Of a stretch of DNA of 64,000 bases, positions 4,554 through 57,525 are shown piece by piece; within the stretch, counting starts at the first letter, position 1, and each line of letters starts with the position of its first letter. This stretch comes from an uncultured Verrucomicrobiae bacterium. GTDB lineage: Bacteria; Verrucomicrobiota; Verrucomicrobiia; JADLBR01; CALLMV01. Both the position numbers and the translations under genes were made by a program. The stretch lies in contig CALLMV010000014.1 in assembly GCA_938005615.1 (NCBI GenBank), positions 62,001 to 126,000 of the forward strand, in the 5' to 3' direction. The notes beneath the pieces are model-generated. The model was not told where the DNA came from, did not search any database, and worked only from the letters and a program-made list of their open reading frames with translations.

Positions 4554-4762
4554 ACGAAACTATTTGTCATCAACTCGGAAAAAAAGTTTTTTCTCGAGGT
4601 ACACTAATTTAAATTAAATTATTTGAATATTATCATGTAATAATTTTTAGTGAAAATATAAAAAATATTCGAACAGAGATTCTTTTAGAGCAAAATATTG
4701 ATCTCAGTTCGTAAACGAAACTTCACGCTTATTCTTCTTCGGTTATATCTTTGTATTCTAAC

Positions 4763-5947
4763 ATGCAGAGTGGCTCCTCAGACAAACTTCCCATCCTCGC
4801 CTCATTCGTCGGCACCTATCTCAAACCGGAAATGTGGCACGTATACAATCAAATTACAGGTCTTCAAAACTACCGATCCGTCGTGATCACACGGAAACGA
4901 GAAAACTTAACCCTTTTCCCCGAACCGCAGGTCAGGATACTAAACCACAACCTGCCAAGTTGGCCCTGGCGGTATTATATGAAATTTGTGCATCGTGCTC
5001 CACGGGAGATCTACAAGGGCTTGGTCGATGCCCTGCGTTCTGAGCTAGATGCTTGCCAAGCAAGCCTCCTTCACGTCTATTTCGGCCACGAGGCCACACG
5101 CCTTGTCCTTGCACTCCGCCACTTACACATACCATGGGTGGTCTCATTTCACGGTGCGGATCTGGGTCGCTACGTGCTACGCGGTGAGGATAAGCAACGC
5201 CTACCTTTAGTGTTTCAAAATGCCAGACTGGTACTTGCTCGGTGCCAGTATTTTATTCCTAAGCTGATCAACTTGGGTTGTCCGCCAGAAAAAATACGCC
5301 TCAATCGCACCCATATACTCACGGAATTTTTTCCTTATCATCAGCGCTCCTGGTCCGCAGCTGACGGAGTTTGGCACTGGTGCCAAGCTTCACGGTTCAT
5401 CCCCAAGAAGGGCCTTGCTGATACAGTGCGTGCGTTTTCTATTTTTCTTCGGAAATATCCCCGTTCACACCTCCACATCGCAGGTGACGGTCCACAGCGC
5501 AAAGAGATCGAACAACTTGTGCGCCACCTCCAACTCACCGATTCTGTGACACTCCACGGGATGCTAAACCGCGCTGACCTCGCTGAGCTTTATGCACGTT
5601 GTCACTTCTTCCTTCATCCCAGCCTCACGGATCCTGATGGTGATATTGAAGGGGTCCCTAATTCACTATTGGAAGCGATGTCCACGGGTCTTATCTGCAT
5701 CGGTACCCAGCATGCTGGCATCCCCGAAGTTATCCAAGACGGATACAACGGATTACTTGTGCCGGAATCTTCGCCCGAAATGATTGCGGAAAAACTCATT
5801 GAACTTACGTCGCGAACCCAGCAGCTCGAACAACTCTCTCAAGCAGCCTCCTTACACATCAGCAAACACTACACAGCAGCGATCCAAATCGCTTTTCTCG
5901 AGCAATACTATGAAGAAGCGATGACACAAAAATCCACTTCGCCATGA
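4763..5947 (+). CDS. glycosyltransferase family 4 (GT-B fold)
   Basis: About 394 residues with the two-domain GT-B layout. The N-terminal half ends in a SFHGADLG motif; the C-terminal half has RFIPKKGL, HIAGDGPQ (nucleotide-sugar loop) and IEGVPNSLLEAMSTG, the EX7E motif of GT4 retaining enzymes. This resembles transferases of exopolysaccharide, O-antigen and colanic-acid loci. I chose the ATG at 4763; a TTG at 4751 would add four residues. Its stop overlaps the start of the fucosyltransferase gene (ATGA), so the pair is probably made together for one surface glycan. Acceptor and donor cannot be predicted. Confidence 0.88.
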   Translation: MQSGSSDKLPILASFVGTYLKPEMWHVYNQITGLQNYRSVVITRKRENLTLFPEPQVRILNHNLPSWPWRYYMKFVHRAPREIYKGLVDALRSELDACQASLLHVYFGHEATRLVLALRHLHIPWVVSFHGADLGRYVLRGEDKQRLPLVFQNARLVLARCQYFIPKLINLGCPPEKIRLNRTHILTEFFPYHQRSWSAADGVWHWCQASRFIPKKGLADTVRAFSIFLRKYPRSHLHIAGDGPQRKEIEQLVRHLQLTDSVTLHGMLNRADLAELYARCHFFLHPSLTDPDGDIEGVPNSLLEAMSTGLICIGTQHAGIPEVIQDGYNGLLVPESSPEMIAEKLIELTSRTQQLEQLSQAASLHISKHYTAAIQIAFLEQYYEEAMTQKSTSP

Positions 5948-6837
5948 GTACACCTCAATGTGTGGCTGTCGCACTCAGCGACGGTCTGGGCAACCAGATG
6001 TTTCAGTACGCCGCCGCACGTGCAATTTCACTGCGTGCAGACCTGCGACTGAAACTCGACCTGGGCATTTTTCAATCTGGTGACGGATTCCGCAGATACA
6101 TGCTGTCACCTTTTCTACCAAATGCAGAATTTCTCACCAACGAAGAACGTACAGCGTTAATCGGCCCACACTCAACGGCCACCACTCAATGGTGGCCTTA
6201 CCGCGTACTTGACTCTCTTCGCCCGTTACACAGGCGCCGCTTAATCATTCAAACTGGTTGGCACTTTCACGATCACCTTTTGAAAGTACGAACACCATGC
6301 TTGCTGCGTGGTCACTGGCAGAGCGAAAAATATTTCTATGATTTTACGGAATTGATTCGCAGAGAATTTTCCTACCTGGAACAAAATCCCTTAACAAACA
6401 CCAAGCTCCAACATGAAATTTCAAACAGTAACTCGGCTGCCATTCACGTTCGCCGAACTGACTACTTGGCAGCTCACACCGCGGGAATTCACGGCGTATG
6501 TCCATTGGACTACTACGAAAGAGCTGTAAGAGAAATTGAAAAACGTTTTGGAAAAGTTCGTTGGTGGATCTTTTCCGACGACTCAAGTTGGGTTCAAGAA
6601 CAGCCTTTCTTCCGATCATTAGGTCACATATTATCTGGCGATCCGAATAATCCTCTGGAAGATTTCCAGCTCATGCGTAGCTGCCAGCATTTCGTCATAG
6701 CTAACAGCACGTTCAGCTGGTGGGCAGCTTGGCTCGGGGAAAAAACCAATTCTCTAGTCATCGCTCCCCAAAGGTGGTTTACTACCCCCAATCGCGACTC
6801 ATCTCAAATTATCCCGACGCGCTGGCTTCTTCTGTAG
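5944..6837 (+). CDS. alpha-1,2-fucosyltransferase-like protein, GT11
   Basis: 297 residues. GT11 signatures: LSDGLGNQMFQYAAARA at the N-terminus, the donor-binding HxRRxDY motif IHVRRTDYL in the middle, IFSDDSSW, and the C-terminal block ANSTFSWWAAWLG. GT11 enzymes transfer L-fucose from GDP-fucose to galactose on lipopolysaccharide or capsule, often producing host-like blood-group H structures. No GDP-fucose synthesis genes (gmd, fcl) are in the window, so the donor must come from elsewhere if this assignment is right. Starts at an ATGA overlap with the GT4 gene and ends in TAG. Confidence 0.88.
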   Translation: MSTPQCVAVALSDGLGNQMFQYAAARAISLRADLRLKLDLGIFQSGDGFRRYMLSPFLPNAEFLTNEERTALIGPHSTATTQWWPYRVLDSLRPLHRRRLIIQTGWHFHDHLLKVRTPCLLRGHWQSEKYFYDFTELIRREFSYLEQNPLTNTKLQHEISNSNSAAIHVRRTDYLAAHTAGIHGVCPLDYYERAVREIEKRFGKVRWWIFSDDSSWVQEQPFFRSLGHILSGDPNNPLEDFQLMRSCQHFVIANSTFSWWAAWLGEKTNSLVIAPQRWFTTPNRDSSQIIPTRWLLL

Positions 6838-9909: not shown

Positions 9910-9926
9910 CTGTTGTACCACAACAG
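9910..9926. promoter_or_regulatory. 17-base palindrome upstream of pgk
   Basis: CTGTTGT-ACC-ACAACAG is a perfect 7-base inverted repeat with a 3-base centre, 62 bases before the pgk start. It lies downstream of an AT-rich stretch (9780-9890) that could hold the promoter. It could be an operator or a small leader hairpin; no regulator is identified. The rest of the 260-base gap after uvrC shows no gene. Confidence 0.35.
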
Positions 9927-9987
9927 CCCGCTGCAAAAATTTACGCTTTCCCCTTGCCCGCAACGCTTCCAAAACGTAAACACCCGC

Positions 9988-11217
9988 ATGGCCAAAAGAT
10001 CCCTCAAAAATACCGACGTCAACGGCAAACGCGTGCTTGTGCGCGTAGATTTTAACGTGCCCCTCGACCACAAGGACGGCAGCGTCACAATCACCGACGA
10101 CACGCGCATCCAAGAGACCCTGCCGACGATCCGCGCACTCATCGCGGGCGGCGCGCGCATCGTGCTGTGCTCGCACCTCGGCCGCCCCAAAGGCAAGCCG
10201 GACCCGGCACAATCCCTCCGCCCCGTGGCCGAACATCTCAGCAAAATTTTGGGCCAGCCGGTGCAATTTCTCGATGCCAACCCGACCTCGCCCGAGGGCC
10301 TCTCAACTCTCCAATCTGCAGTCGCCGCCTTGGGCAACGGCCAAGTGGCGCTGCTGGAAAACGTGCGTTTTTGGCCCGGCGAGGAGGACAACGATGCTGC
10401 CCTTGCGAAAGCCTTTGCCAGCCTCTGCGACATCTACGTGAACGATGCCTTCGGCAGTGCCCACCGCGCCCATGCCTCCACCGAGGGCGTCGCGCATCAT
10501 GTGCCGCTCGCTGTGGCCGGGCTGCTCATGGAGCGCGAACTCGAATACCTGGGCGGCAAGCTCGAGCACCCCGCGAAGCCCTTTGTCGTGATTCTGGGCG
10601 GGGCGAAAGTTTCCGATAAAATCGCTGTGATTGACCGCCTGCTCGACAAGGCCGACGCCCTACTCATCGGCGGCGGCATGGCCTACACCTTCAAGAAAGC
10701 CCTCGGCCAATCCATCGGCAAATCCCTCTGCGAACCCGACCATGTGCCCACCGCGTTGGCCGCGATGGACAAAGCGAAAAAGCGCGGCGTAGAGCTGCTG
10801 CTGCCCGTTGATAACTTGATCACCGACGCGCTGGACTTCGGCGGGCGCACCGTCGGAGCCACACGCACCATCGCCCCTGGCGAGGCCATCCCCGATGGGT
10901 GGGAAGGCGTGGACATCGGCCCGGCGACAGTAAAGCTTTATTCGGAAAAAATCGCCACGGCCCGCACGATCTTGTGGAACGGCCCAATGGGCGTGTTTGA
11001 GATCAAGGCCTGCGCGGAGGGCACTTTTGCCATTGCGCGAGCCATAGCGGCCAACACATCTGCCGTTTCGATCATCGGCGGCGGCGATTCGGTGAAGGCC
11101 GTCAAACGCAGTGGCGTGGGCAACAAAGTCACCTTCATGTCCACGGGCGGCGGAGCATCGCTCGAGTTTCTGGAAGGAAAGGTGCTGCCGGGCGTGGCCG
11201 CGCTGAGCGAGGCTTAA
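9988..11217 (+). CDS. pgk: phosphoglycerate kinase
   Basis: Glycolytic enzyme converting 1,3-bisphosphoglycerate and ADP to 3-phosphoglycerate and ATP. The 409-residue protein has the full family set: VLVRVDFNVPLD (substrate arginine and Asp), CSHLGRPKG, ENVRF, GGAKVSDKI, GGGMAYTF, ILWNGPMGVFE and, at the C-terminus, IGGGDSV and STGGGASLE for nucleotide binding. I chose the ATG at 9988 (MAKRSLKN), since an in-frame TTG 75 bases upstream would add a tail unlike the family. GC content is clearly higher than that of the FkbM gene 30 bases downstream. No gap or tpi gene is adjacent. Confidence 0.96.
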   Translation: MAKRSLKNTDVNGKRVLVRVDFNVPLDHKDGSVTITDDTRIQETLPTIRALIAGGARIVLCSHLGRPKGKPDPAQSLRPVAEHLSKILGQPVQFLDANPTSPEGLSTLQSAVAALGNGQVALLENVRFWPGEEDNDAALAKAFASLCDIYVNDAFGSAHRAHASTEGVAHHVPLAVAGLLMERELEYLGGKLEHPAKPFVVILGGAKVSDKIAVIDRLLDKADALLIGGGMAYTFKKALGQSIGKSLCEPDHVPTALAAMDKAKKRGVELLLPVDNLITDALDFGGRTVGATRTIAPGEAIPDGWEGVDIGPATVKLYSEKIATARTILWNGPMGVFEIKACAEGTFAIARAIAANTSAVSIIGGGDSVKAVKRSGVGNKVTFMSTGGGASLEFLEGKVLPGVAALSEA

Positions 11218-11247: not shown

Positions 11248-11974
11248 ATGAGCATTAAAAAGAAAGGTGTGTTTTCTGGTTTTAATAGTTTTTTAAAAAA
11301 ATTATTACTTACATTTTTGGGCCAAGGTTACAAAGAACATGTAGTATTATGTGGTATTTTGCGGGGACTCAGGCTTTATCTTCATACAGAGACACAGTTA
11401 CAAGTGATATTTGGACTTTGGGAAAGAGAACTTACTCCTTACTTTAAAAAGTTATTCAAAAAAGCCGTGTGGTTTATAGATGTCGGAGCCGGTCGTGGTG
11501 AGCATGTTATTTTTCTCCTTCACTCAAAAAAACTTAAACATGTTATTGCTTTTGAACCACAAATAAGTGAAGTTGATTTATTCAAGAAAAACCTGCTGTT
11601 AAACGGATTTCAAAATGATAGCAGGTTAGAGATCTCTCAAAAGTTTGTGGGCACTTCCACGGGGGGGGGTAATTTCTCTTTCCGAATTGACTCTAGACAC
11701 TAACTCTTGTGGGGGAATTAAGATAGATGTTGATGGAGCTGAGATTCAAGTCCTGGAAGGTTGTCATGAACTTTTTCAAAAAATAACATCTCCAATATAC
11801 TTAATTATTGAAACCCACACTGCCGAGATAGAAAAACAATGTATCTCCCTACTCAAGGAAAACCATTTCTCCTGTAAAGTTATTAAAAATGCTTGGTGGA
11901 GATATTTTATTCCAGAATATCGTCCCATTCCGCACAATAGATGGATATGGGCAGTCAAAAATCCTGCCTCATGA
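11248..11974 (+). pseudogene. FkbM-family methyltransferase, frame broken at a G9 tract (possibly phase-variable)
   Basis: FkbM-type SAM methyltransferases methylate sugars or other surface and secondary metabolites. The first frame (11248-11703) has the SAM-binding motif FIDVGAGRGEH and the acidic IAFEPQ strand. The second frame (from about 11670 to 11974) continues with SLSELTLD and the family hallmark IKIDVDGAEIQVLEG, then IIETH and the C-terminus. They join at a run of nine G at 11661-11669: with eight (or eleven) G the whole reads as one protein of about 240 residues. As sequenced, translation ends at 11703 after 151 residues. The gene is much richer in A+T than its neighbours, which suggests acquisition. 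It could be switched by slipped-strand mispairing, be a pseudogene, or reflect a homopolymer sequencing error. Confidence 0.82.
11661..11669 (+). repeat. poly-G tract (9 G) within the FkbM gene
   Basis: A run of nine G preceded by CCAC and followed by TAA, inside the coding region. The reading frame must change here by one base for the two halves of the methyltransferase to join, as expected of a contingency locus. A run of G is striking in a gene this AT-rich. Confidence 0.85.
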
Positions 11975-12063
11975 TATAAGATAAGACAATTAACTGTCTA
12001 ACTTTGTAGTTTCATAATTTTTCATTCTATTTGTCAACACGCATTGCAAGGATATTATGCTGG

Positions 12064-12729
12064 ATGCGCCGGGTAGTACAGCCAGAGATTTTGGATGGCC
12101 TGCCGCATGATCATCCAGACAGCGTGGCCGGAAGGCGGGATTTGCGGAGGTTGAATTTTTTGATGGGCACGCACCGCTGGTTGCGGGGCAAAGTGAAAAA
12201 ATTGTGTGTTCGGCGCGAAAGTCTGAGGGTGCTGGAGCTGGGTGCGGGCGATGGGGCACTGGCTCTGGGGCTCCGAGGGGATCTGCACGGGCGCGTGGTG
12301 TGGTGCGGTGTGGATTTGGCACCGCGACCCGCGGGATGGCCGCAGCACTGGGATTGGGTGCAGGGCAGCGTGCTGGATGATTCGATCACTTGGCCGCGAG
12401 CGGATGTGGGTGTGGTGAATTTAATGTTACATCACTTTGATGGCACAGAGCTGCGCCGGGTGCTGATGCGCCTATGCGGGGTGTGCGAGTATTTGCTGGT
12501 GTGTGAGCCAGTGCGACGGGGCTTTCATATATTGCAGCTGGCACTGTTGCGAGGTTGGCTGTTGCATCCGGTGACGTGGCATGATGGCCGGGTGAGTATC
12601 CGAGCGGGATTTTTGCCCGGGGAGCTGCAGGCTCTGCTACCTAGAGAATGGCGTTGCCGCGAGAGCGCAGGTTTTCGTGGGACTTTGAGATTAGTGGGTT
12701 GGCGGGGCGAAGGGAGTGGCCCACGATGA
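12064..12729 (+). CDS. SAM-dependent methyltransferase of the type III PKS operon
   Basis: About 221 residues. Motif I is LRVLELGAGDGALAL (residues 60-75), followed by the acidic WCGVDLAP and, in the post-I region, VNLMLHHFDG. This is a class I small-molecule methyltransferase, likely acting on the polyketide product. The N-terminus MRRVVQPEILDGLPHDHPD, followed by an RRDLRRLN block, resembles methyltransferases found beside type III PKS genes. I start at the ATG at 12064, with AAGGA about 11 bases upstream; a TTG at 12031 is also possible. It is coupled to the FAD oxidoreductase by an ATGA overlap. The coding strand is strongly G-rich. Confidence 0.85.
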   Translation: MRRVVQPEILDGLPHDHPDSVAGRRDLRRLNFLMGTHRWLRGKVKKLCVRRESLRVLELGAGDGALALGLRGDLHGRVVWCGVDLAPRPAGWPQHWDWVQGSVLDDSITWPRADVGVVNLMLHHFDGTELRRVLMRLCGVCEYLLVCEPVRRGFHILQLALLRGWLLHPVTWHDGRVSIRAGFLPGELQALLPREWRCRESAGFRGTLRLVGWRGEGSGPR

Positions 12730-13769
12730 GTGCGAGAAGGATCGAGATTGTGGGTGGCGGGTTGGCGGGGTTGGCACTGGGAATTTTTTTGCAGCGCCGG
12801 GGGGTGGATGTGGTGGTGCATGAAGCAGGGCGTTATCCGCGGCATAGGGTGTGTGGGGAATTTTTGTCGCCGCGTGATGCAGGGTTTTTGAGCAAGTGTG
12901 GATTGGAAGATATCGTGCAGGAATGCGCTGCAGGGAGGGCGATCTCTGTGCTGTGGGAGTGGGCTGGTGCGGGCGCTGGTGTGGGGCGTTTCACGCTGAA
13001 TGAACCGGCGTGGCGGGTGTCGCGCTATGTGCTGGATGCGCAGCTGGCGCGCGAGCTTGTCGCAGTGGGCGGGAGGTTGATTTGTGGTGCGCGTGTGGAG
13101 CAGGATGCGGCGGGACGTGAGGGGCTGGTTTGGGCAGCGGGGAGGCGTCGTGCAACTCAGTGCGGATGGGTGGGTGTAAAGTTGCATTTGCGCGGGGTGC
13201 AGTTGCGGGCAGATTTGGAGATGATCACGGGTCGTGGGGCGTATGTGGGGTTGTGCCAAGTGGGAGAGAATGAGGTGAATGTGAGCGGGCTGTTTCGTGC
13301 ATCGAATGTGCCCGGGGGCAAGGAGCGTGGCTGGCCCGCGCTTTTGAGGAGTCATGGGTTGGGTGGGTTGTGTGAGCGCTTGGCGGGAAACGATGTGGTG
13401 GAGGGGAGTTTTTGTGCGGTGAGTCATTTGGATTTTTCGACTATTAATCGTGGTGGGGCGGATCGTTGTGCGGTAGGTGATGCGTTTGGGATGATTGCCC
13501 CGCTCACGGGCAACGGAATGAGTGTGGCGCTGGAGTCGGCTTGGTTGGCCAGCGAGCCGTTGGTGGATTATGCGGAGGGTCGGCGCGACTGGGCAGGGAC
13601 GTGCGCGGAGGTTCGCCGGAGGTTGAGCAGAGCGTTTGCATTGCGGATGCGGGTAGCGCGTTTGTGTCAATGGCTGTTATGTGCCGGTTGGACACACGCT
13701 CCGTTGAGTGCGGCAGCGCAAAGCGGGCTTGTGCCATGGGGGCGGCTGTATGCCGTATTAGGGTCGTGA
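12726..13769 (+). CDS. FAD-dependent oxidoreductase (monooxygenase / geranylgeranyl-reductase-like)
   Basis: 347 residues. The N-terminus has the dinucleotide motif IEIVGGGLAGLALG, followed by VVVHEAGRYPRHRVCGEFLSP, typical of the FAD oxidoreductases that include geranylgeranyl reductases and aromatic hydroxylases. The C-terminal FAD block is AVGDAFGMIAPLTGNGMS. In this operon it probably oxidises the phenolic or pyrone polyketide, for example to a hydroxylated or quinone form; this is inference. I start at 12726 because it gives an exact N-terminal Rossmann motif and an ATGA overlap; a longer in-frame reading begins at 12648. Its stop overlaps the PKS start (GTGA). Confidence 0.87.
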   Translation: MSARRIEIVGGGLAGLALGIFLQRRGVDVVVHEAGRYPRHRVCGEFLSPRDAGFLSKCGLEDIVQECAAGRAISVLWEWAGAGAGVGRFTLNEPAWRVSRYVLDAQLARELVAVGGRLICGARVEQDAAGREGLVWAAGRRRATQCGWVGVKLHLRGVQLRADLEMITGRGAYVGLCQVGENEVNVSGLFRASNVPGGKERGWPALLRSHGLGGLCERLAGNDVVEGSFCAVSHLDFSTINRGGADRCAVGDAFGMIAPLTGNGMSVALESAWLASEPLVDYAEGRRDWAGTCAEVRRRLSRAFALRMRVARLCQWLLCAGWTHAPLSAAAQSGLVPWGRLYAVLGS

Positions 13770-14797
13770 AGCTTTTGTCGCTAGAGTGTGCCGTGCCTGC
13801 GCAGGGCATGACGCAGAAAGAGCTGCTGTCGGCTCTACGGGGTTGCTCGGCTTGGAGCACTTTGCGTGAGGGTTCACGGGAATTGCTGACGCGGGTGCTT
13901 TCGGGGGATTCGGGGATAGGTCGGCGGTATTTTGCGCGGTGTGATTTGGAGGAGCTGGGAAAAGCCGATGGAGGAAAGCTGGCGGAAATTTTCGAGCTTG
14001 AGGCACCGGCTCTGGCGAGCGAGGCTGTAGGACGCGCTTTGAGTAGTGCTGGGGTTTTTGCGGAGGAGCTGGATGCATTGCTGGTCTGCACATGCACGGG
14101 GTATCTGTGTCCGGGGGTGTCGGGGCATGTGGCGCAGCGGCTGGGCCTTCGCGCAGATGTGATGCTGGTTGATTTGGTGGGTCAGGGTTGTGGGGCGGCA
14201 TTGCCGCTTTTGGCGACGGCAGAGGGGTTGCTGGCTGCTGGTGCCCAAAGTGTGGCATGTGTAGCTGTGGAGGTGAGCTCGGCGGCGTTTTATTTGGATG
14301 ATGATGCGGGGGTGCTCGTGAGTTTGTGTTTGTTTGGTGACGGAGCGGCGGCGTGTGTGTGCACGAAGAATCGTAAGCAGGCAGATGCGCTGGTTGAGCT
14401 GAGCGATTTTCGGCAGTTGCACTGGCCAGAGCAACGGGAGGAGCTGCGTTTTGTGAACAGCGGAGGAAAGTTGAGGAACGTGTTGCGCCCAAGTGTGCCG
14501 GACTTGGTAGCGGATGCTGTTGCGAAGTTGCTGCCAGAACTTGCGCAGGAATCTTCGCACAGTGCGTTGTTGGCGCACTCGGGTGGGCGCAAAGTGATCG
14601 AGGCTTTGGAAACGCGTTTTCCTGGAGTGGGATTATCGGCGAGCAAATCGGTGCTGCGCAATTTTGGAAATATGAGCAGCCCCTCGGTGTTGTTTGTGCT
14701 GCGCAGGTGGTTAGATGACGGGGGCAACAGATCAGCCTGGCTGGCAAGTTACGGGGCGGGATTTACCGCGTTTGCATGCCGGGCGCGCAAGGTTTGA
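13766..14797 (+). CDS. type III polyketide synthase (chalcone synthase-like)
   Basis: 343 residues, a normal length for bacterial type III PKS. The catalytic triad is complete: Cys about 142 in DLVGQGCGAALPLL, His about 271 in LLAHSGGRKVI and Asn about 302 in RNFGNMSSPSVL. The enzyme would extend a fatty acyl or aromatic CoA starter with malonyl units to an alkylresorcinol or alkylpyrone; the starter is unknown. I chose the GTG at 13766 because it forms a GTGA overlap with the oxidoreductase stop and gives the family N-terminus; the frame is open upstream to 13541 but that part overlaps the previous gene. It is convergent with nuoF, 11 bases away. Confidence 0.92.
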   Translation: MKLLSLECAVPAQGMTQKELLSALRGCSAWSTLREGSRELLTRVLSGDSGIGRRYFARCDLEELGKADGGKLAEIFELEAPALASEAVGRALSSAGVFAEELDALLVCTCTGYLCPGVSGHVAQRLGLRADVMLVDLVGQGCGAALPLLATAEGLLAAGAQSVACVAVEVSSAAFYLDDDAGVLVSLCLFGDGAAACVCTKNRKQADALVELSDFRQLHWPEQREELRFVNSGGKLRNVLRPSVPDLVADAVAKLLPELAQESSHSALLAHSGGRKVIEALETRFPGVGLSASKSVLRNFGNMSSPSVLFVLRRWLDDGGNRSAWLASYGAGFTAFACRARKV

Positions 14798-45803: not shown

Positions 45804-46831
45804 TCACGTCATCTCCTGATAACGTTTCTCATCGATGCGAAACTTTAAGTCCTGTCCACTGCTAAAGCGGGCCAGATTGTCTAATGCGTTATGATGATAC
45901 GGCCGCAGAGCATTAAGATCAAGAGGCCATGATACTACTTCCGCCTGATGCGCAGTAATTATCACATTCGAAAGCCTAGGCAAGGGATGATCCTTGGGGA
46001 ATTTATCCCCCTCATGCACCAGCACATCCAAACCAGCTCGCAATCTACCGGATTGAAGCTCTCGTGTCAGTGCGTCTTCATCAATCACCGCTCCACGCGC
46101 TGTGTTTACAATCACAGCATGGTCAGGTAGCATAACGAGAAGTCTTGCCGTAACAGACATTCTCGTGACCTCATTCAACGGCGTGTGGATACTGATTGCC
46201 TCGCAAGAGCTGAACAACTCTTCCAAAGAGCCGACACGCCTTCATGTTCCGGTAAATCCGTTGCGATGGGATCGTAAATTATAATTTCCGGACCCAGCGG
46301 TGCGACAATTTGAGCGAATCTTTTAGCTATTAAACCAAACCCATAAATACCAAGCCTTAGACCATCGAGCGTGCTTAGACTTTGCTTCCAGCTCCACTCC
46401 GTCCATCCTCCTTGGCTAATACTTTGAATTTGTGGGCGAATGTTTTTCAAGCAAGCAAGCAGAAGAGCCAGTGTGGACTCTGCAACCAGCCCTGCAGGTG
46501 CATCACCCCAGTTCGTAACCGGAATAGCTGAACGAATAATCCCCAGTGGGATCATACCTCGCATACTTCCCGTGATGTGAAGGATGTATCTTAGCCTGGC
46601 AAAGCCATGCACCAGTGCCGCAGGGATAGGCCGCATACCCCAATCAGTGAACAGTACGTCACAATCGCAACATAAGGCGATCACCTAGTCATCGGAAAGA
46701 TTTCCTGTGTCTTTTAGAACTTTCAGTGACCCAAATTTTGCCAGTTCTTTCTTGAAATATTCTGTAAAAATATTTGGTGAAGGCTCTTCAAGTGCCAGGT
46801 GCAAAAGATGCATAATGTTTTGTAGTCTCAT
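45804..46831 (-). pseudogene. D-isomer-specific 2-hydroxyacid dehydrogenase, broken
   Basis: The Rossmann fold is recognisable: LRLGIYGFGLIAKRFA, AISIHTPLNE, MLPDHAVIVNTARGAVIDEDAL and GLDVLVHEGD. The N-terminal part (from about 46831) is interrupted by an in-frame TAG at 46685-46687, after which DCDVLFTDWG resumes. A second lesion near 46215 (around EHEGV / GSLEELFSSCEA) shifts the frame by one base, so the C-terminal 140 residues lie in another frame. Both lesions would need repair for a working enzyme. It follows an equally broken sugar isomerase and was probably in one operon for a sugar acid. Confidence 0.82.
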
Positions 46832-47602
46832 GCTTATTACCACATGACGAAGCAAAAACTTTAGGTCAGAAACCGCTGCTTCCATCAGTCGTTCTTGAGA
46901 TTCATCAGGCCGATTAGTACCAACAGTAAATTCCAGCGTGAAGTCGCCGCGGAAGCCCATCCTTGAGAGGTTTTCAATCACAGCGCAAGACCGCTCCGGA
47001 TGCTGTGCCACACTGGCCCACTGATTGGCCTGATCCCGAAACTGCACATGAACCTCCTTAATTCTATGTCCGAAATATTCAAACCACTGTTGCAGATCTG
47101 CTTCAGATATTGCAAAGGCATGCACAATTATCTCCACAGGAGCATCCACGGTCTCAAAAAATTCTGCCGCTGACCTTGGCCTCTCAAGCCACGTGCCCGG
47201 GTGACACTCGCAGCGAAGAGCAACACCTGGTAGTAGTTATGCCAGCAAAGATATGCCTAGGCGCGCCTGTTCTTCCCGACCGGTTTGTTCGCTTACATTG
47301 AATTTCATTGCACGAAATCCTAGCGATTCGTAAGCCTCTTGCAATTCCTCGAGTTTGTCTTCGGGAATTTGCTTATCTGGTAGCAAATACGAATTAAAAA
47401 CAATTACCGGGAAACTGGACTTCGCGATGGCCAGACGCTCGTTAAGAGGCGCTTTGCACCAGTGATTTTCCCACAGCTCCCAACCATCGAATCCAGCGCC
47501 CTGTGCTTTGTCGCACCACTCGCTAGCCTGTAGTGCGGGAGTATCACGCAGTTTATTGTCCCAACGATTTTTCTCTAACAACACACTACTCAGCAAAAAC
47601 AT
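46832..47602 (-). pseudogene. sugar-phosphate isomerase/epimerase (TIM barrel), broken
   Basis: Residues such as SSVLLEKNRWDNKLRDTPAL, AGFDGWELWENHW, GFRAMKFNVSEQTG, and after the stop ECHPGTWLERP and IKEVHVQFRD are typical of an AP-endonuclease-2-like sugar isomerase. An in-frame TAA at 47237-47239 cuts it after about 121 residues, and the reading then continues for a further 130 residues in the same frame. The normal stop is also lost: the frame runs without a break into the dehydrogenase that follows. I place the start at the ATG at 47602. Substrate unknown. Confidence 0.8.
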
Positions 47603-47763
47603 CACTACTGCCTTTCCATACATTTTAAAAAAAGCAAAAAAATGCCTCAGCCAACATGCAGCGCTCCACTATTGGCGTAGTTCATAACACAGTAACCAAC
47701 TTGAATCAGCCTCATACTACAGGGATAAAACTCAGCAAAACACCACTCACAGCGGTTGACTAA

Positions 47764-56234: not shown

Positions 56235-57525
56235 TTACTTTTTCAGGCAGTCGAGCACTGCGCGGAATTTGGGCATCTGATCGGGAGATTGCCCGTAGAA
56301 CTCGACGTGGCCCTATGAGCCCCAGCGCATGCCTTGCTGGCTAGCGCTGCTAAAGATACAAAAGAGTTCGCAATTGAGTGCTTCGTGCTGGCGGAAGAGT
56401 TCGATGTAGGCACCGTACATTTGCTGGCTGAATTGGGCTTCACGGAGAGCTGGCGTGTAAGGGGTCTCTTGCTGATTGCGAGGCTGGATGTGTTGGCCGC
56501 CCTCGTAAACGATAAACCGGAGATTAAATTCATCGGCAATTTGGCGGATCTGGCTGGAAAAATTGGCTGCTTTGTCCTTTAGGTTCCCCATGACGTCGAA
56601 CATCACTTGCTCGGCTGTAAGATCCGCTCCGGCGGCCTCCCAGCGTTCGTAAACCTCTTTGTCAGGGCCGAAGTATCCGGTAGGGGAGATTGCTTCGGCG
56701 CCTCCGCTATGTTGCACTACATATCGGGCGGTACGGCGTGCCGTATCCGGCCAAGATTGCTGGACAGCAATCACACGGATGATCCGGCTCTTCTGGTCGC
56801 CGAATTCTTCATGCCAGATTTTAAAGGTACGGGCAAAGAGATATGCTCACTGGGTAAAAGAGATATGCTCATTGGGTACGCCTCCAGAGCTCCAAGTGTA
56901 GAATTCTGCAGGTTTGCGATCAGCCCATTTTTGAAGACGGGAGTCGTTCGTACTCATCCAATCCATAAATCGGAGGGTGTCGAAGTGCTCGACGTAAGCA
57001 AGGAACTCTGGGGTGTGAGGGTTTTCTTTGGACTGCTTGGGGTCAATACCTGGAGGTAAGATAGTGATGTTGCGTATCGGGTTGCGCTCTTCGGCACGGC
57101 GCATGATAAGGACGGCATAGCCAAGAGTTTTCGCGTATTTCGATCTCGCCATCATTGGAACCCGTTGGGGTGAAGCGGGCACCTAGGTCAGCTGCTAACT
57201 CCCCTTCGCCATCCCAACGGATAGTGTAGGTGCCAGGGCGGTGGTTGGGAATAATTGCTCGGAGAATGACGGAGCGCTCAGTCTCGTCGTTGACAGGCAC
57301 GCGCTCAGGGTAACCGTGGCTACGAAATTTGAAGAGGTCTCTTTTTTTAATGTCCCAATCGCTAGGGCCTTCGCCGTAGAAACTGGTCCACATCCGAGCG
57401 CCGCGCATAAGGTTTTGGGTAGGTAGCTTATCTTCCCAGTCATTAATGCTGGAGAGATTACTGCGGAGGCGTAATTTGGGGAGGCTGTCCGCAAACGTTG
57501 GTGCTGAAGCAAGAGCCAACAGCAA
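56235..57525 (-). pseudogene. large secreted protein (GH-A clan-like), broken in several places
   Basis: Translated pieces in order: a signal-like segment (LALASAPTFAD), LRGARMWTSFYGEGPSDW-like and RPGTYTIRWDGEG blocks, LRFMDWMSTNDSRLQKWADR, FKIWHEEFG, AISPTGYFGP and a C-terminal HVEFYGQSPDQMPK. This order resembles secreted glycoside-hydrolase-like proteins of planctomycetes. Lesions: a frameshift near 57115, a TGA at 56847-56849 where Trp is expected, a TAG at 56313-56315 where Trp is expected (WGS*GHVEF), and an apparent internal deletion before FKIWHEEFG. A tandem duplication of 22 bases sits at the second lesion. No good start codon is visible. The function is lost if the sequence is right. 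Confidence 0.75.
56835..56878. repeat. 22-base tandem duplication
   Basis: Two adjacent copies of a 22-base unit at 56835-56856 and 56857-56878, differing by one base. They lie inside the secreted-protein pseudogene next to its in-frame TGA; 22 is not a multiple of three, so the duplication would shift a reading frame. Confidence 0.8.

Follow-up and report, generated by a model that had tools for sequence, protein, structure and literature searches.

A predicted gene of the FkbM family of SAM-dependent methyltransferases is divided between two reading frames at a run of nine G, and we put at about 0.4 the probability that it is a phase-variable contingency locus, judging from a single assembled sequence. 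It lies in a window of 64,000 nucleotides (positions 62001-126000 of contig C14) from an uncultured Verrucomicrobia bacterium, within an assembly of 1.67 Mb in 51 contigs, about 76% complete and the sole genome of its family in our comparison. Under this reading, a methyltransferase gene that was probably acquired horizontally, and whose product likely acts on a cell-surface glycan, would bear a slippage-prone G tract in a stretch coding for a loop. Slipped-strand replication would have left nine G in the assembled copy, which would then be OFF because its halves are out of frame; a further slip, to eight or eleven G, would bring back the full enzyme and make the gene a simple contingency locus that toggles between ON and OFF. 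A single assembled genome fits both such a reversible switch and a gene that simply broke; slippage, itself a presumed event, is the likely mutation under both. The two readings stand roughly level, followed by an error of assembly and, last, by recoding.

The split gene (11248-11974) comprises 727 bp with 36% GC. Its first open frame starts with ATG at 11248, runs through the tract and ends at a stop at 11701-11703 after 151 aa, and the second, on the same strand in a different frame, has 109 aa, its true coding part starting at the G tract (Table 1). Among tract lengths from seven to twelve, tried in silico, the halves join only at eight G (241 aa) and eleven G (242 aa), in both cases ending at the stop at 11972-11974, whereas seven, nine, ten and twelve G yield 140, 151, 141 and 152 aa, respectively, a stop following directly past the tract at seven or ten. 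The preliminary description had reported an AT-rich FkbM gene split exactly at nine G, with halves in different frames that join at eight or eleven G, and it proved accurate on each of these points. The parent contig carries the identical G9.

Table 1. Features of the window that bear on the split methyltransferase gene.
Feature	Position	Strand	Remarks
FkbM methyltransferase gene, 5' half	11248..11703	+	SAM-binding motif VDVGAGRGE-like, here FIDVGAGRGE; 11 out-of-frame codons past the tract
Nine-G homopolymer, site of the frame change	11661..11669	+	Encodes variable-loop residues
Open frame with the 3' half	11645..11974	+	KIDVDGAE motif and C-terminal block KNAWWRYFIPEYRPIPHNRW; PF05050 match; alignment
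pgk (phosphoglycerate kinase)	9913..11217	+	30 bp upstream of the FkbM gene; context
Glycosyltransferase, GT4-like	4751..5947	+	Upstream context
Glycosyltransferase family 11	5944..6837	+	Upstream context

The assignment to the FkbM family is based on the joined protein, which scores above the cut-offs of both PF05050 (36.7 bits against 22.7; Pfam) and TIGR01444 (48.3 bits against 37.7; NCBIfam). The read-through protein aligns end to end, at 25-39% identity, with intact proteins of 221-254 aa, including those of two class relatives (G034 and G067), Bradyrhizobium, a Hyphomicrobiaceae MAG, a Planctomycetota MAG and others. In an alignment of 11 sequences the motifs D.GA..G and KIDVDG.E are common to all homologues, and a C-terminal block WWR..PE.RP..HNRW is common to the nearer ones. 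The proteins of Bradyrhizobium agreste, the Hyphomicrobiaceae MAG, G034 and G067, 36-38% identical over their full length, share the motifs and the C-terminal block; unlike the gene studied here, each is encoded in a single open frame with no G run longer than five, relative to which our reading frame is broken. The tract itself is absent from the nearest homologues, where G runs never exceed five or six. A structure model, computed from the read-through protein together with homologues (mean pLDDT 90.7, pTM 0.87), has a Rossmann-like fold and matches SAM methyltransferases in general, the nearest solved structure by sequence being 2py6 ('Methyltransferase FkbM'). Residues 138-140, encoded by the tract, sit in a loop of this model, and the nine-G product ends ahead of the second half of the fold.

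The alignment also confines the lesion. The first frame aligns through an invariant glycine (G135) and the second from about I142, which localises the frame change to some six codons, the tract making up half of this interval. Compared with the nearest homologues, the eight-G version lacks one loop residue and the eleven-G version aligns without a gap; both lengths fit, because loop length differs among homologues. Neither the frames nor the homologue alignment revealed a second lesion in the 727 bp. The frame is set by the length of an intragenic homopolymer in the slippage-prone range. A recent pseudogene would likewise show no further lesions. Two further FkbM-type loci came to light among the homologues. 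One, in an Acidobacteria MAG (L034:5851-6531), is apparently frame-broken twice, away from long homopolymers. The other belongs to a Deltaproteobacteria MAG and is FkbM-like but distant. Its C9 tract, just before KIDVDG (L094:6509-6517), was rejected as a counterpart of our G9 since it is in frame and its position is not homologous; it is possibly another candidate for tract slippage.

It is reasonable to infer that the predicted enzyme acts on a cell-surface glycan, adding a methyl group to a sugar, because its homologues have glycosyltransferase genes nearby in Bradyrhizobium, in the class relatives G014 and G034 and in the Planctomycetota MAG. In the window, two glycosyltransferase genes do lie upstream and further off, as had been described; functional coupling with them was set aside because deoC, uvrC and pgk intervene. 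The gene stands alone, outside any glycan cluster, between pgk and a compact set of genes (12031-14797, + strand) for a methyltransferase, a FAD-dependent oxidoreductase and a type III polyketide synthase-like protein, the last of which resembles the DpgA and FAE1 families at scores well below their equivalog cut-offs. Several observations concern its origin. Its third-position GC is about 0.3, against 0.6-0.76 in adjacent genes, and a clear homologue occurs in six of 384 class genomes, its own included. As read from translations, several relatives from the order and class have tpiA directly after pgk; here the FkbM gene occupies that place, and tpiA lies on another contig (C4:47529-48272). 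Single-sequence scans of genome and viral contig collections recovered no relative, phage sequences gave none, and plasmid sequences gave just weak Rhizobium matches. The gene was likely acquired laterally.

Whether the tract is unusual depends on the scale of comparison. In a gene of this composition a run of at least nine G is expected 0.0017 times, and a run of at least eight arose in 47 of 20,000 synonymous-codon shuffles; by contrast, 0.32 G9 tracts are expected per 64-kb window, and 24 of 100 shuffles reached one. The tract is therefore unusual for the gene and unremarkable for the genome. Ten G/C tracts of at least eight occur in the assembly. Two of them have nine bases, the one outside the FkbM gene being intergenic. 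Of the G8/C8 tracts, five fall within open frames that stay undisturbed (among the carriers, by reading their translations, aroB-like, metH-like and ABC-permease-like genes) and one is located at a tRNA-Ser gene. Apart from the FkbM gene, no gene in this genome sequence is interrupted by a G/C tract of that length. Tracts of at least nine G occur at 1.2 per Mb, fewer than in most of 18 relatives, for which the median is 3.2. Nothing in the assembly points to a set of contingency loci: the tract is neither kept in homologues nor one of several in the genome, features that are typical of such loci and not strictly required of them. In addition, MutS and MutL are intact; in other species their loss raises tract mutability (PMC5084427).

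Known systems offer close parallels. For example, the gene ntHI0694 of Haemophilus influenzae 86-028NP encodes a FkbM-family methyltransferase and carries a G12 tract, which has been proposed to vary the O-methylation of surface polysaccharide (PMC2651432). Like our gene, it combines membership of this family with an intragenic poly-G tract in a low-GC gene in which G runs are otherwise rare (PMC2651432). There, however, the tract is longer, is situated at the 5' end and occurs in a species for which many contingency loci are known, whereas the nine G found here lie in mid-gene and stand alone. Similarly, phase-variable SAM methyltransferase genes of Campylobacter (Cj0170, UbiE_3 and others) carry tracts of G7-13, a range that includes the length observed here; in that genus length variation between strains is documented and a genome has many such tracts (PMC6321876), while we have a lone tract in one genome. 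Nearer in phylogeny, the capsule genes Amuc_1413 (G8) and Amuc_2098 (C10) of Akkermansia muciniphila, of the same phylum, were proposed from sequence to be phase-variable, which places poly-G/C in polysaccharide genes there too; the organism is, by contrast, host-associated, the enzymes are different, and the portion of that report considered here does not describe their frames as broken (PMC3048395). Finally, a G-tract switch is documented for the pili of a commensal Bifidobacterium (PMC9187656), and meningococcal homopolymers of at least eight were mostly variable under deep sequencing (PMC5084427). We found no report in the literature of homopolymer phase variation in metagenome-assembled genomes.

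The proposal that the gene is phase-variable survives in part: gene class and tract length make it plausible, but a wider set of contingency tracts is lacking, MutS and MutL are kept, and the same genome contains genes in ordinary decay, including another FkbM gene. The switch is favoured because the sole lesion falls at a spot of easy slippage in a class of gene that is classically switched, and disfavoured because the tract is alone, mismatch repair is intact, the homologues lack the tract and the genome contains plain pseudogenes. An ordinary recent loss accounts for the data almost as well. In that case a transferred accessory methyltransferase gene would have been inactivated by a single slip within its longest homopolymer and would be at an early stage of decay, the tract being the site of a mutation and not a maintained switch. 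Inactivated accessory genes are indeed common in this genome, and genes are being lost. A second FkbM-type gene, directly upstream of an argS-like gene, carries two in-frame nonsense codons, TGA and TAA, with no homopolymer at either (C41:32933-33340 and upstream; L117:1132-2001). In the window, within 45804-47623 on the - strand, a gene for a D-2-hydroxyacid dehydrogenase is split by a frameshift near 46200, again without a homopolymer. Two more open frames appear broken, both without a Pfam match: one upstream of the dehydrogenase gene, isomerase-like by eye, with an internal stop, and a secreted-protein-like one (56313-57525, - strand), apparently with a frameshift and a stop. The AT-rich composition of the gene, its sporadic occurrence, its position outside any glycan cluster, the missing set of contingency tracts and the Acidobacteria homologue broken by other lesions all accord with such a loss. 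What speaks against it is that the gene has one lesion only, at the tract, and is intact for the remainder; the lesions of the other decayed genes lie elsewhere, two of these genes have two of them, and the G9 lesion is set apart because theirs are of other kinds.

Rather improbable, by comparison, is an error of sequencing or assembly in the length of the tract, with a true tract in frame and a gene that is simply intact. The sequence is a single metagenome-derived consensus and homopolymers are error-prone; Illumina reads can be disturbed by poly-G (PMC9187656), and a singleton frameshift confirmed through homology often proves to be a sequencing error (PMC3711429). Such an error is nevertheless made less likely by the other eight-base homopolymers within genes, since A8, T8 and C8 tracts in further genes of the window leave the frames open, as do the coding G8 and C8 tracts elsewhere in the assembly. 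Least credible is recoding, in which ribosomal frameshifting, or transcriptional slippage on the G run, would let the nine-G gene make a share of enzyme at full length: transcriptional slippage typically occurs at homopolymers of at least eight, but RNA polymerase slips mostly at A/T runs (PMC3711429) and the homologues have no such site. A programmed ribosomal frameshift was rejected, as a -1 shift enters the frame of the ten-G version with its immediate stop, RNA structure is not unusual (z = 0.76) and the site is not conserved. Terminator-like matches at the tract are weak stems within the coding sequence.

Returning to the switch, its more specific form, in which a lineage with intact mismatch repair would keep one lone poly-G switch in a transferred surface-glycan methyltransferase gene, for instance against phage adsorption, seems unlikely to us; if true, it would mean that a single contingency switch can arise where a genome has no set of them. 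A switch of any form would add at most one more case of a well-known kind. Were the tract variable, the gene would provide a clean contingency locus, testable from reads, in a phylum for which slippage-based phase variation has merely been proposed (in Akkermansia). Were it invariable, the case would illustrate how weak the evidence for phase variation is when a poly-G frameshift is seen in one assembled genome: other genes here carry G8 tracts without being disturbed, and the same enzyme family is also represented by ordinary pseudogenes. Among the class relatives, three genomes (G008, G006 and G017) have about 12-24 tracts of at least nine G per Mb and are better hunting grounds for poly-G contingency loci.
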